Positions 5,187-46,659 of a stretch of DNA of 64,000 nt are shown here, one piece after another. Position 1 is the stretch's first letter, and every line of letters begins with the position of its first letter. Under the pieces are notes generated by a model that made no database searches, was not told the DNA's origin, and worked only from the letters and a program-made list of their open reading frames with translations. Made by a program: the position numbers and the translations under genes. The stretch comes from Tritonibacter multivorans (GTDB lineage Bacteria > Pseudomonadota > Alphaproteobacteria > Rhodobacterales > Rhodobacteraceae): positions 1-64,000 of the forward strand of contig NZ_CYSD01000020.1 in the NCBI RefSeq assembly GCF_001458415.1, written 5' to 3'.

Positions 5187-5469
5187 ATATTTTTCTGGCA
5201 TAACAAGCCGATTTGTCTTGGTGGTTTCAAACACTCCATTGCCTCCCCCCCGCGACTCTGATATGTCCCGCGCATCTTGCAGCCTCGGATTCGTTCCGGG
5301 GCTCATGATTTTTGGAAATGAGGGACCTTCGGGGCCCTATCAAATCGGTCACCTGAACCGACTACGTCAACACCCAGAACACCGGGATGGCGCGGGGCAG
5401 GGGGCTTTCACATAGCGGGTCCAAAGACAAAAACCTAAGGGCTCGCACGCTAAACGGAAGACAGAAAGC
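5187..5469. other. Leader region of the rplB block
   Basis: These 283 bases between the lipoprotein gene and rplB hold no convincing gene. Because two terminators lie upstream, a promoter for rplB-rplP must lie here or within the lipoprotein gene. No consensus hexamer pair stands out. Confidence 0.4.
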
Positions 5470-31497: not shown

Positions 31498-32891
31498 CGC
31501 CGGTTGAAGAACAGCACCACCTGACGCGCCTGTCGCTGGAACAGACCGGGGGTGGCGACGACCGGGGTGGTTTCGGTCTGGTCGATCAGGCGCAGGGCCA
31601 GCCAGACCGCCAGAAGCCCAAAGATCAACCCGCCCAGAGCCTGCCCCACCAAGGCCCCCGGCGCCCCCCAGAGCTGCGCACCCACCCACACAAAGGGGAT
31701 CGTCCCCACCGTATGTCGGCCCCAGTTCAGCCATGTGGAATAAAACGGCCGTCCAAGGTTGTTGAAACAGGCGTTGGCGACAAACAGCGCCCCGTTGAAA
31801 AAGAACATCAGCGCCAGCGGTCCGCAGAACAGGTAGATCAGCGTCTGCGCGTCGCCTGTGGCGTTGAACAGCGCAATGACATGATCGCGCAGCAAAAACA
31901 GCAGCAGCGCCATGGCGACAACAAACAGCCCGGTAAAGATCAGCGAATCCCGCAGGGTCTGGCGCACGCGGGGCAGCTGTCCGGCCCCGAAGTTCTGCCC
32001 GACAATGGGTCCAATCGCCCCAGAGAGCGCGAAAATCGTGGCAAAGGCCAGCGGCGTCATACGGCCGACAATGGCCATGCCGGCGACCGCCTCTTCGCCG
32101 AATTCGGCCATGGCGCGGGTGACATAGGCTTGGCCCACAGGGGTGGCCAGCTGCGTCAGAATGGCGGGCAGCGCGATGGCGGCAATCGGGGGCAGATCCC
32201 GCAGAAAGGCAAGCGGCCGCGGCCAGCGCAGACCGCCGTGATGGCGAAAGATCGGCGCCAGAGCAAAATAGGCCATCGCGATCCGTGCCGCGACCGAGGC
32301 CAGCGCTGCCCCGGTCAGTTCCAGATCCAGTCCAAAAATCAGGATCGGGTCCAGCACCGCATTGACCAGACCGCCTGCGATGGTGGCCATCATCGCGCGT
32401 CGGGCATCGCCATGGGCGCGCAGGATCGCCCCCCCCGCCATGCCGATCAGCAGGAACGGCAGGCTGGGGACAATGATCTGCAGGTAATGCACCGCCAGGT
32501 CATGGGGGCGCCCGGAGGCCCCGACCAGTGATACAAGCGTCTCCAAGGACAGCCAAATGAGCACCACAAAGCCTGCGCAGGCAAGACCGCCCGCCAGCAG
32601 CGCATGGGACGCCCGCGCCTGCGCTTGCGCTGCATTGCCCGCGCCAAGCGCGCGGGCGACCAGCGCGCCGGCCGCAATGGCCACGCCAATATTGAACGAG
32701 GTGGTGAAAAACAAAATCGCCGCCGCATAGCCGACAGCCGCGGCCAATTCGTCCTTCCCCAACATGGAGATGAAGATCATATCGACGAAATCCACCGCAA
32801 AAACCGCCATCAAACCAAGCGAGGCGGTGAAGGACATCACGGTGATATGGCGGAATAAATTGCCGCTGAGGAATTTTGCCTGTTCCGCCAT
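31494..32891 (-). CDS. MATE-family efflux transporter
   Basis: This 465-residue protein has twelve predicted membrane helices in two halves. Typical MATE stretches include SFTASLGLMAVFAVDFVDMIFISMLG, and the repeat-like GNAAQAQARASHALLAG and VGQNFGAGQLPRVRQTLRDSL. MATE proteins export cationic drugs or toxic metabolites in exchange for H+ or Na+. The ATG at 32891 is preceded by GGAGG. No regulator gene adjoins. The substrate is not predictable. Confidence 0.88.
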   Translation of the reverse strand: MAEQAKFLSGNLFRHITVMSFTASLGLMAVFAVDFVDMIFISMLGKDELAAAVGYAAAILFFTTSFNIGVAIAAGALVARALGAGNAAQAQARASHALLAGGLACAGFVVLIWLSLETLVSLVGASGRPHDLAVHYLQIIVPSLPFLLIGMAGGAILRAHGDARRAMMATIAGGLVNAVLDPILIFGLDLELTGAALASVAARIAMAYFALAPIFRHHGGLRWPRPLAFLRDLPPIAAIALPAILTQLATPVGQAYVTRAMAEFGEEAVAGMAIVGRMTPLAFATIFALSGAIGPIVGQNFGAGQLPRVRQTLRDSLIFTGLFVVAMALLLFLLRDHVIALFNATGDAQTLIYLFCGPLALMFFFNGALFVANACFNNLGRPFYSTWLNWGRHTVGTIPFVWVGAQLWGAPGALVGQALGGLIFGLLAVWLALRLIDQTETTPVVATPGLFQRQARQVVLFFNRR

Positions 32892-33016
32892 GGGGGCCTC
32901 CGTTGGGTGGTCTTTCCCATGTAGGCACACCCCCTGCCGGAGCCTAGAAAAAAACACAAGCAAGGGGTGAAAATAGGGGATCGACAGTTTTCCGAATCTC
33001 CGTTAGCGTCCGTCAC

Positions 33017-33106
33017 ATGAACATGACCCGCCCTCAATCCTATGCCGCATTCTGGTATTTTTATTATCCGAGCCATCAGGCGGTCGGAGGGTCAGTCGCG
33101 CTGTAA
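33017..33106 (+). CDS. Aromatic-rich attenuation leader peptide
   Basis: A 29-codon frame (ATG 33017, TAA 33104-33106) encodes a peptide containing the run FWYFYY (codons 12-17), plus Tyr9: seven aromatic residues out of 29. It lies upstream of a DAHP synthase gene, with a hairpin series and a T-run terminator between them. This is the layout of a transcription-attenuation leader sensing charged tRNA-Phe, -Trp and -Tyr. No strong ribosome-binding site precedes the ATG. TCGACA-17-TAGCGT just upstream is a possible promoter that would make the message nearly leaderless. Confidence 0.75.
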   Translation: MNMTRPQSYAAFWYFYYPSHQAVGGSVAL

Positions 33107-33165
33107 AGAAAGAGCGACAACAGACACCAGATACCAACCGCCCCAGGATCCCGGGCGGTTTTTTT
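33079..33165 (+). promoter_or_regulatory. Attenuator region of the DAHP synthase gene
   Basis: The terminator pairs AACCGCCC (33136-33143) with GGGCGGTT (33153-33160), then seven Ts. The alternative arm GGCGGTCGG (33079-33087) can pair with CCAACCGCC (33134-33142), which shares the terminator's left arm, so the two folds exclude each other. A further hairpin GTCGC...GCGAC (33095-33118) covers the leader stop codon. CCGCC at 33028-33032 can occupy GGCGG when the leader is fully translated. Stalling at the aromatic codons should favour antitermination. Confidence 0.7.
33136..33165 (+). terminator. Attenuator terminator before DAHP synthase
   Basis: AACCGCCC-CAGGATCCC-GGGCGGTT followed by TTTTT lies 65 bases before the aroG start. 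It is the terminator arm of the attenuator. Confidence 0.85.
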
Positions 33166-33229
33166 GTATCTCACGCCTGAGGATCAAGACGGGGCCTGAC
33201 ACAGATTAAACACTGACAGGACACCGAAA

Positions 33230-34312
33230 ATGACCAAGCAAACTCAGGACATCCGGATCAACGACATGCAGGAACTGATCTGCCCCGAAGCGCTCGAGGT
33301 GAAGCATCCGCTTACCGATGCGGCGCGCAAAACCGTGCTGGAGGCGCGCGCGCGCATTCAGGACATTCTGCACGGCCGCGACGACCGTCTGGTGGTGGTC
33401 GTGGGGCCCTGTTCGGTCCATGACCCAGAGGCCGCGATGGATTATGCCCGCCGCCTCGCGCCGCTGCGCGCGGAACTGGGCGACCGGCTGGAAATCGTCA
33501 TGCGCGTCTACTTTGAAAAACCGCGCACCATTGCGGGCTGGAAGGGTCTGATCAATGACCCGGATCTGGATGGGTCGTTCCGCATCAATAAGGGCCTGTC
33601 CAAGGCGCGCCAGCTGTGTCTGCAGGTGAATGAAATGGGCCTGCCGGTGGGCACCGAATTCCTCGACACCGCTGTGCCGCAGTACCTGGATGATCTGGTG
33701 TCCTGGGCGGCGATTGGCGCACGCACCACCGAAAGCCAGATCCACCGCGAGATGGCCTCGGGCCTGTCCTGCCCGGTGGGGTTCAAGAACGGCACCCGTG
33801 GCAATGTGCAGATCGCCATTGATGCGGTGCGTTCAGCCGCGACGCCGCATCATTTCATGGCGATGGCGAAATCCGGTCTGGCGGCGATTGCCCATACCTC
33901 CGGCAACCCGGATTGCCACATTATCCTGCGTGGCGGTGGCGGCACCAACTTTGACGCGGACAGTGTCGACAAGGCCTGCCGCACGGCGGAAAAAGACGGC
34001 ATCCGCGGTCAGGTGATGATTGACGCAAGCCACGCGAACTCTGGCAAGGATCCGGAGAAACAGCCCGAGGTGCTGGCAGATGTCGCAGGCCAGATCGCCG
34101 TGGGCGATGGCCGCATCACCGGCATTATGATCGAGAGCCACATTGTTGCGGGCCGTCAGGATCTGCCCAAAGACGGTGACCTGTCGAAACTGACCTACGG
34201 CCAGTCCGTCACCGATGGCTGCATCGGCTGGGACGACACCGTGGTGCAGCTGCGCAAACTGGCCGAAGCGGTGGAAACCCGCCGCACCGCCAGCGCCCGT
34301 CTTGCAGGTTAA
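33230..34312 (+). CDS. aroG: DAHP synthase, class I (AroG/AroF type)
   Basis: This 360-residue enzyme joins phosphoenolpyruvate and erythrose 4-phosphate, the first step of the shikimate pathway. The motifs VVVVGPCSVHD (near residue 60), KPRTIAGWKGLINDP and QLCLQVNEMGLPVGTE mark the AroI-alpha class, which is normally feedback-inhibited by an aromatic amino acid. The substrate-binding Lys in KPRT is present. The upstream leader peptide and attenuator imply control by aromatic tRNA charging. No other aro gene is linked. The choice among aroF/G/H-type naming cannot be settled by sequence here. Confidence 0.93.
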   Translation: MTKQTQDIRINDMQELICPEALEVKHPLTDAARKTVLEARARIQDILHGRDDRLVVVVGPCSVHDPEAAMDYARRLAPLRAELGDRLEIVMRVYFEKPRTIAGWKGLINDPDLDGSFRINKGLSKARQLCLQVNEMGLPVGTEFLDTAVPQYLDDLVSWAAIGARTTESQIHREMASGLSCPVGFKNGTRGNVQIAIDAVRSAATPHHFMAMAKSGLAAIAHTSGNPDCHIILRGGGGTNFDADSVDKACRTAEKDGIRGQVMIDASHANSGKDPEKQPEVLADVAGQIAVGDGRITGIMIESHIVAGRQDLPKDGDLSKLTYGQSVTDGCIGWDDTVVQLRKLAEAVETRRTASARLAG

Positions 34313-34335
34313 GGCTGCCCGGTTCATTAGGTTTT

Positions 34336-34435
34336 GCGCGCCCCATTCCTCCCCGAGGGGGCGCGCAAGTCTTGGCGGTCGCGCGCTCCTCACGTTGTGC
34401 GGCCTCAGACGAGGAGCGCACCCTGCGGGGTGCGC
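34336..34435 (+). repeat. Cluster of GC-rich extragenic palindromes
   Basis: Three dyads follow each other between aroG and the protease gene: GCGCGCCCC...GGGGGCGCGC (34336-34366), GCGCTCCTC...GAGGAGCGC (34383-34419) and GCGCACCCTGCGGGGTGCGC (34416-34435). The second and third overlap, so they could switch. No T run follows the first, so it is not a clear terminator. Function unknown. Confidence 0.55.
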
Positions 34436-34517
34436 TTTGCTTTTGGTGTGCGCTTTGGCTTGCATTAGGGGCTTTGGCTTCGCATATCCTCTTTGCACCA
34501 AAGAGGAATCACAATTG

Positions 34518-35903
34518 ATGCTGCGCGCCCTGTTCTTAGCCGTTTCACTGATGTTGCCGACCCTTGCGCTGGCTGAAACCCGCGTGCCGCAGTCGCAGGC
34601 CGAGATCGCCATGGGGTTTGCCCCGGTGGTCAAACAATCTGCCCCTGCGGTTGTGAACATCTACGCCAAGATCGTGCGTCAGGGGCAGACCCGCAGCCCT
34701 TTTGCGGGCGATCCCTTCTTTGACGAATTTTTCCGCGGCCTGACCCAGCCACGGCCGCGGGTTCAGAACTCGCTCGGCTCTGGTGTGATCCTGTCGGCGG
34801 ACGGGCTGGTGGTGTCGAATTACCATGTGGTTGGCATGGCCACCGACATTCGCGTGGTCACCAATGAACGCCGCGAATACCGGGCCGAGGTGATCCTGGC
34901 CGACAAGGACAGCGATCTGGCGCTGCTGCGGCTGGAAGGGGCCGAAGACCTGCCGTTTCTGCACCTGCGCGACAGTGACCGCGTCGAGGTCGGAGAGCTG
35001 GCGCTTGCGATTGGCAACCCCTTTGGGGTGGGGCAGACCGTGTCGTCGGGGATTATCTCCGGGTTGGCGCGCACTGGCTCCGGCGGCGGGCAGGGGTTTG
35101 GGTATTTCATCCAGACCGACGCGCCGATCAACCCCGGCAATTCGGGCGGTGCGCTGATTGATATTCGGGGCGATCTGATCGGGATCAACACCCGTATCCT
35201 CAGCCGATCCGGCGGGTCCAATGGCATTGGCTTTGCGATTCCGGCGAATTTGGTCTCTGAATTTTTGCGACAAGCCGAGGTGGGCACCGAGGAATTCCAA
35301 CGCCCCTGGGCGGGCATGAGCGGGCAAAGCGTGGATTATGATCTGGCGGAAGCCCTGGGGCTAGAGCGCGCCGATGGTATGCTGATTTCCGAGCTTCATG
35401 ACCAAAGCCCCTTTGCCGAGGCAGGCTTTCGCGTCGGGGATGTGGTGCTGGCCGTGGATGGGTTGTCGGTGACGTCTCCGGCGGAAATGGTGTTTCGCCT
35501 GACGGTGGCGGGATTGGGCAATACGGCTGAGGTCACGCGCCTGCGCGCAGGCAAGGTGAGCACTCATGACATTCCGCTGCAGGTCGCACCGGGCGGGGAT
35601 GAGCTGCGCACGCTAACGCTGAATGATCGCGCCGCGTTGCCGGGGCTGACCGTGGCCGATCTGACGCCCAAGCTGGTGTCGCAGATGCAGTTGCCGCTGG
35701 ACACCAAAGGCGTGGTTGTCACCGACCCCGGCCCTGTGGCCGCGCGGGTGGGGGTGCAGCCCGGCGATGTGATTTTGGCGGTCAATCGCGCCACGCTGGA
35801 ACGGGCCGAGGATCTGCCGGATTTCCTGGCGGAAGCGGGCCGGTGGGTCCGTCTGGACGTGCAGCGCCGTGGGCGTCACGTGCAATTGCGGTTCCGGCTC
35901 TGA
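34518..35903 (+). CDS. DegP/HtrA-type serine protease
   Basis: This 461-residue protein has a signal peptide (to about Ala19) and a trypsin-like domain with a complete triad: His103 (SNYHVVG), Asp133 (KDSDLALL) and Ser209 (NPGNSGG). Two PDZ domains follow (from about residues 275 and 380). DegP-type proteins degrade or hold misfolded envelope proteins in the periplasm. The ATG at 34518 has GAGGA ten bases upstream; TTG 34515 is an alternative. The stop overlaps the rarA start (TGATG), an unusual pairing for translational coupling. Confidence 0.92.
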   Translation: MLRALFLAVSLMLPTLALAETRVPQSQAEIAMGFAPVVKQSAPAVVNIYAKIVRQGQTRSPFAGDPFFDEFFRGLTQPRPRVQNSLGSGVILSADGLVVSNYHVVGMATDIRVVTNERREYRAEVILADKDSDLALLRLEGAEDLPFLHLRDSDRVEVGELALAIGNPFGVGQTVSSGIISGLARTGSGGGQGFGYFIQTDAPINPGNSGGALIDIRGDLIGINTRILSRSGGSNGIGFAIPANLVSEFLRQAEVGTEEFQRPWAGMSGQSVDYDLAEALGLERADGMLISELHDQSPFAEAGFRVGDVVLAVDGLSVTSPAEMVFRLTVAGLGNTAEVTRLRAGKVSTHDIPLQVAPGGDELRTLTLNDRAALPGLTVADLTPKLVSQMQLPLDTKGVVVTDPGPVAARVGVQPGDVILAVNRATLERAEDLPDFLAEAGRWVRLDVQRRGRHVQLRFRL

Positions 35904-46463: not shown

Positions 46464-46515
46464 CTTTTTTGGTCGCATCCAGACTTGTTCCACCCGCGCA
46501 GCGCTGCCAGAAGGA

Positions 46516-46659
46516 GGCGTTCTCAGGGCGGGGCGAAATTCCCCACCGGCGGTAAGCAGCAATGTAAGCCCGCGAGCGCCTCGGGCACTGCCCGGGGGTC
46601 AGCAGATCAGGTGCAACTCCTGAGCCGACGGTAACAGTCCGGATGGAAGAGAGACAGCG
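46516..46659 (+). promoter_or_regulatory. FMN riboswitch (RFN element)
   Basis: The conserved RFN blocks appear in order: GGCGTTCTCAGGGCGGGG, then CCCCACCGGCGGTAA, GCCCGCGAGC, GGTCAGCAGATC, GGTGCAACTCC and GCCGACGGTAACAGTCCGGATG with AGAGAGAC. FMN binding should shut down the downstream gene, ribH2. No strong terminator follows, so control is probably on translation. About 90 bases separate the element from the start codon. Confidence 0.95.

Follow-up and report, generated by a model that had tools for sequence, protein, structure and literature searches.

The class I DAHP synthase gene aroG of Tritonibacter multivorans is preceded by a short reading frame rich in aromatic codons, which raises the question of how transcription into this gene may be controlled. 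The initial annotation had read this region as a leader peptide with an attenuator. This reading was followed up in the window (the whole stretch of 64,000 nucleotides, to the plus strand of which all coordinates refer) and in relatives, where the aromatic codons and the competing stems were found to be conserved, supporting the attenuator reading.

The leader and its putative promoter

The leader peptide ORF (33017-33106) has 29 codons, encodes MNMTRPQSYAAFWYFYYPSHQAVGGSVAL followed by a stop, and contains FWYFYY; the coordinates originally given for this region proved right to the base. The putative sensor, as read from the sequence, is formed by the codons TTC TGG TAT TTT TAT TAT (Phe-Trp-Tyr-Phe-Tyr-Tyr, 33050-33067). 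Within the ORF and 11 nt past the last aromatic codon lies the predicted antiterminator 5' arm GGCGGTCGG (33079-33087), which in the predicted fold pairs with the 3' arm CCAACCGCC (33134-33142), matching the helix drawn in the initial annotation with 8 of 9 pairs. Window fold prediction places the tip of this hairpin at 33095-33118 (GTCGC with GCGAC), where it contains the stop codon (33104-33106). The antiterminator 3' arm overlaps the 5' arm of an intrinsic terminator (33136-33165) that consists, as first described, of the hairpin AACCGCCC-loop-GGGCGGTT (33136-33160) followed by seven T (33159-33165). The downstream ORF (33230-34312) is aroG according to profile matches (TIGR00034, E 1.9e-154; PF00793, E 1.1e-94), confirming the gene named earlier.

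A promoter-like pair (32981-33009), comprised of TCGACA (32981-32986), a 17 nt spacer and TAGCGT (33004-33009), ends 7 nt 5' of the leader ATG. Neither this pair nor the terminator appeared in the output of a generic scan of the leader region, because the -10 element is non-canonical and because the terminator loop is 9 nt where the scan allows 8. Across 63 loci, a -35/-10 pair scoring at least 8 of 12 with a gap of 5-12 nt was found in 44 (shuffles: mean 2.1, maximum 7) and the -10 element ended 6-10 nt before the leader ATG in 57, and the promoter block was aligned in 17 Rhodobacterales leaders. The ATG at 33017 is favoured over that at 33023 because the distance between promoter and ATG is conserved. 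Shine-Dalgarno-like 4-mers precede 3 of 93 leader ATGs. The promoter spacing suggests that the leader ORF is leaderless.

Distribution of the leader and its aromatic codons

Upstream regions were screened with a detector for an aromatic cluster, a stop codon and a hairpin with a T tract. The detector was positive at 120 of 171 loci, duplicates included, and gave no match in base-shuffled upstream regions (0/2400, from 20 shuffles of 120 regions), in reverse complements (0/120) or upstream of class II DAHP synthase genes (0/31, being the 30 best of 146 genomes with a match plus the genome of the window); two stray aromatic stretches occurred in the class II set, and the leader layout was missing there. 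The 51 loci with no detector match include four that nonetheless carry the leader, as recognized by eye or by model (L088, L145, L175, L204), and three that are cut off by contig ends (L029, L054, L191). Additionally, an RNA model (R1, with 7 pairs) was built from an alignment (A1) of 39 leaders hand-chosen from 60 (20 Rhodobacterales, 16 other alphaproteobacteria and 3 Xanthomonadaceae) and was used to search 385 class and 398 phylum genomes; the best 30 matches per search were fetched, giving 58 loci in all. At 41 of the 42 strong full-length fetched loci (E <= 2.3e-7) aroG lies directly downstream, the remaining one ending at a contig edge, and aroG was downstream of none of the 16 weak fetched loci.

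The AroG protein search found 80 named loci, with more from class and phylum genome searches (30 phylum matches were examined). By protein search, class I aroG was found in 35 alphaproteobacterial genomes (17 in the window's family, 5 more alphaproteobacteria and 13 from the phylum search), and a leader lies upstream in all 35: in 32 it was found by the detector, in L088 by eye, and in G806 and G578 by the RNA model, the match adjoining aroG in G806 and sitting at a contig end in G578, where aroG opens another contig. Within the window's family the class I gene is sporadic (17 of 394 genomes, E <= 1e-50), and all 17 genes carry the aromatic leader (16 by the detector; L088, with an interrupted T tract, by eye). 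Among AroG loci titled as alphaproteobacteria the leader is present in 32 of 35; L054 is cut off, and the leader is missing at L030 and L067, which are MAG loci labelled Sphingomonas. The leader also occurs in Pseudoxanthomonas, Stenotrophomonas and Rhodanobacter (Xanthomonadaceae) and at several beta-/Burkholderiales loci, and among the loci examined it was not found at aroG of Pantoea, Lonsdalea, Xenorhabdus, Salinivibrio, Neisseriaceae and others. The leader is therefore not special to Rhodobacterales, occurring in alpha-, beta- and gammaproteobacteria.

Conservation of the aromatic codons upstream of class I DAHP synthase genes, which had been put forward as a check, was borne out in these relatives. 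Phe and Tyr codons are present in all 93 clusters of distinct leaders; a Trp codon is present in 78, all three residues are present in 78, and Trp occurs once in 77, with Trp found in all clusters of the 17 aligned Rhodobacterales leaders. The rare codon TTT is preferred over TTC in the leaders, with a TTT:TTC ratio of 189:76 there against 50:479 in the aroG genes that these leaders precede (odds ratio 24), and TAT:TAC stands at 166:80 in leaders versus 192:272 in aroG genes. Slow codons in the leader would sharpen sensing; the TTT/TAT preference could instead reflect a need for unstructured RNA. The residue after the aromatic cluster is proline in 59 of 93 leaders; a slowing of the ribosome or a role in RNA pairing may account for this.

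Competing helices and the proposed attenuation

In most leaders the GGCGG arm starts 8-14 nt past the last aromatic codon. Over 60 leaders (63 before removal of identical ones), the match of this arm to the terminator scored 16.9 versus 13.8 +/- 0.28 in codon-shuffled ORF ends (highest of 100 shuffles, 14.7), a statistic that, like those on covariation, ignores relatedness among leaders. Matched and swapped arms were not significantly different, with 108 of 2000 permutations as good. After reduction of 120 leaders to 93 distinct ones, exact cores were found on all three arms in 83; the 10 leaders without an exact core were left out of the pair test, and the core pairs are invariant in that test by this selection. 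In 49 of 52 leaders (of 60, the 8 lacking an exact core were left out), the segment from GGCGG to CCGCC, folded alone, gives a long hairpin that the core closes and that carries the stop codon at its tip or close to it. The middle of this hairpin folds into a more stable structure than its shuffled versions do (mean z -1.56, with 39 of the 52 below -1).

The compensatory changes anticipated in relatives are clear for the terminator, whereas the antiterminator, with its invariant core, shows modest ones. In the terminator, 22 double-changed cells were counted versus 7.6 in shuffles and two pairs were matched as well by 0 of 500 shuffles, and the number of pairs with double changes shows no excess (2 versus 2.0 shuffled). 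The flanks of the antiterminator are paired in 51 versus 41.7 and in 41 versus 29.7 in shuffles (0/500 as good), with a third flank pair at 35 versus 28.8 (1/500). For the antiterminator, RNAalifold returned five invariant outer pairs and no covariation. A protector hairpin found no general support (mean z -0.17), though a short local hairpin appeared in 72 of 89 folds (4 of the 93 leaders were dropped). A pairing of UGGUAU, at the Trp-Tyr codons, with AUACCA before the terminator is possible in the window; it was abandoned since, in the alignment, no matching change accompanies UGGUAC or UGGUUU in the relatives that have them.

Clustered end-product codons, an intrinsic terminator and an antiterminator that shares the terminator 5' arm are all present, and the leader is very probably a ribosome-mediated transcription attenuator through which a shortage of Phe, Tyr or Trp switches on the class I DAHP synthase. 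Sequence and comparison support the ORF, the codons, both helices, the spacing and the promoter motif; from these we infer stalling, read-through, OR-type sensing of the three tRNAs, the leaderless start and release of the terminator by an unstalled ribosome. Transcription would begin at the leader ATG or right beside it, and a ribosome would therefore load on the new 5' end. If an aromatic tRNA were short, and a shortage of any one would presumably suffice, the ribosome would stall in FWYFYY and leave GGCGGUCGG, later in the ORF, free to pair with CCAACCGCC, closing the long hairpin that has the stop codon at its tip. This antiterminator would occupy the terminator 5' arm and allow RNA polymerase to enter aroG. 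With all three tRNAs charged, the ribosome would continue across GGCGG and the hairpin, allowing the terminator (ACCGCCC with GGGCGGU) to form, and transcription would end about 150 nt from its start.

When leaders were folded with a ribosome placed on them, the contrast between stalled and finished ribosomes depended on the model, and a stricter one left a modest difference. When only RNA ahead of the ribosome was folded, the terminator 5' arm was held at 0.65 with the ribosome on the aromatic codons versus 0.15 at the stop, in the same direction in 60 of 60 leaders; part of this contrast follows trivially from the smaller amount of free RNA once the ribosome is at the stop. In the window, stalling at any codon of the cluster held the arm equally (0.75). 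The ahead-only model places the switch point directly after the aromatic cluster, and with a shuffled spacer the arm was held at 0.48, not 0.65, at the last aromatic codon. When RNA behind the ribosome was also allowed to pair, with the loop containing the ribosome treated as an ordinary loop, the values became 0.68 versus 0.54, with the contrast present in 69 of 93 leaders (53 to 70 with other footprints). The contrast is smaller here because a ribosome at the stop has GGCGG behind it; release of the terminator was best with the ribosome over GGCGG, before the stop. The window itself gave 0.52 versus 0.40, with a value of 0.14 for a ribosome at the last aromatic codon (the folding scripts began the window ORF at the second ATG, 33023). 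In a ribosome-free fold the arm was held above 0.5 in 63 of 93 leaders and at 0.32 in the window. The equilibrium fold of the isolated full window leader contains neither the terminator nor the antiterminator as drawn; the terminator 3' arm is paired there with CCGCCC near the ORF start, within species-peculiar codons. As modelled, the release step is the weakest link of the attenuation model.

Other readings of the leader differ in what is sensed and whether translation matters. An attenuator that senses Phe and Tyr alone (or Phe alone), with the single Trp codon incidental, is unlikely, though more probable than the other alternatives. In its favour, 15 of 93 clusters have no Trp and 77 have a single one, and a response to Phe limitation is described for the aroR leader of Corynebacterium glutamicum, which contains Phe-Tyr-Phe (PMC11802643). 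It has to contend with the retention of Trp in the other 78 clusters, including those of all 17 aligned Rhodobacterales leaders, and with the equal hold on the terminator arm (0.75) when the ribosome stalls at any cluster codon of the window. Conservation that falls partly in the RNA arms would also fit an element independent of ORF translation, such as a riboswitch or a protein-bound leader. Such an element is extremely improbable, given that the ORF, its start and stop and its aromatic residues are kept while the Phe and Tyr codons vary synonymously, and that the window leader has no Rfam match at E <= 1. Finally, a plain terminator could follow a small gene for a functional micro-peptide, with aroG served by its own downstream promoter; the generic scan listed none between 33165 and 33230. 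This arrangement is highly improbable: the need to match the terminator arm constrains the ORF at its 3' end, and leaders of this kind go with class I aroG.

The preferred attenuator reading could also be extended by analogy to a leaderless three-input OR gate across alpha-, beta- and gammaproteobacteria in which the RNA of about 150 nt that termination releases, or the peptide, additionally acts in trans on other genes. The rnTrpL/peTrpL pair of Sinorhizobium meliloti has been reported to act in this way, and the full extension is rather improbable for the present leader.

Known leaders and the second DAHP synthase

In the E. coli leuL and ilvL leaders the sensor codons lie mid-ORF and the competing arm lies in the 3' part of the ORF, a layout that they share with the window leader while sensing other amino acids. 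The Rfam family RF01859 (Phe_leader, of the E. coli pheA kind) is likewise an aromatic leader peptide with a terminator; the window leader differs in having codons for three amino acids. RF01859 had no match in window positions 31500-35500 at E <= 1, nor at gathering in the whole window, and weak matches in two relatives among ten loci scanned (L050, 29.6 bits; L002, 28.7 bits; gathering 55). Nothing in Rfam exceeded gathering at those ten relatives' loci, in line with the initial remark that no described family was known for this exact leader in Rhodobacterales: no Rfam match to the leader reached threshold in the stretches scanned, and the leader is therefore probably unannotated in many genomes. 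Elsewhere in the window, an FMN riboswitch (46515-46658, 104.3 bits) and an L2-Alphaproteobacteria ribosomal protein leader (5321-5467, 44 bits) were above gathering. Just 3' of aroG, at 34328-34442, lies a sub-threshold ar14 match (E 0.0018; 32.5 bits against a gathering score of 58.8) that has CCTCC in the loop of a hairpin; it may be a small RNA or the region of aroG's own terminator.

Among DAHP synthase genes, the C. glutamicum aroR-aroF leader is described as an attenuated leader peptide (PMC11802643, PMC4046766). Like the window leader, it places aromatic codons before a DAHP synthase gene; compared by its description, it differs in being actinobacterial, with Phe-Tyr-Phe only, no Trp codon reported and a response to Phe limitation. 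The primary paper on this leader is reportedly Neshat 2014. The Acholeplasma uORFC-13-1 before aroF is summarized as having 24 representatives, from Acholeplasma and environmental sequences, with at least one Phe codon (PMC8632094). For E. coli aroF an attenuator with Tyr-tRNA sensing was hypothesized in 1980 (PMC8632094, PMC2659441), and computed RNA motifs are given for Shewanella aroF and aroH, the aroF entry citing the 1980 E. coli hypothesis (PMC2659441). As described there, uORFC-13-1 and the E. coli and Shewanella aroF regions resemble the window leader as candidate upstream ORFs or attenuators before a DAHP synthase gene. The alphaproteobacterial trpL of S. meliloti, described as an attenuator upstream of trpE, has a leaderless ORF for a 14-aa Trp leader (PMC10117765). 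The window leader would resemble it in placing the ORF at the RNA 5' end, as judged from promoter spacing, and, unlike it, has Phe, Trp and Tyr codons before aroG. In the open literature, mostly at the level of titles and abstract openings, no proteobacterial aroG leader of this kind was recognized; the likeliest prior report, Vitreschak 2004, lies outside that coverage. The available portions of PMC2965389, PMC4117421, PMC1273637 and PMC11878033 likewise mention no such leader. TyrR and TrpR proteins are described for the aromatic genes of groups related to Pantoea, Lonsdalea, Xenorhabdus and Salinivibrio (PMC5343134), whose aroG loci examined here are without the leader. Judged from sequence comparison, the mechanism is an ordinary one; its place is widely conserved and is not among the Rfam matches found.

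A class II DAHP synthase is present in 146 of 149 genomes of the window's family, including that of the window, where class I aroG is the second DAHP synthase and the class II enzyme is without such a leader. A sporadic class I aroG marked by the leader beside a near-universal class II enzyme suggests an inducible backup. In the same genome, no Trp leader was recognized by eye in 450 nt upstream of trpE (L130, C42), and RNA-level sensing of Trp in this organism may depend in good part on the aroG leader. This trpE closely follows another ORF. If true, the attenuator reading would put the first step into aromatic synthesis under the control of an RNA in many alphaproteobacteria and some beta- and gammaproteobacteria, and a leader that reads three amino acids at their shared step would be a simple case of multi-input attenuation.
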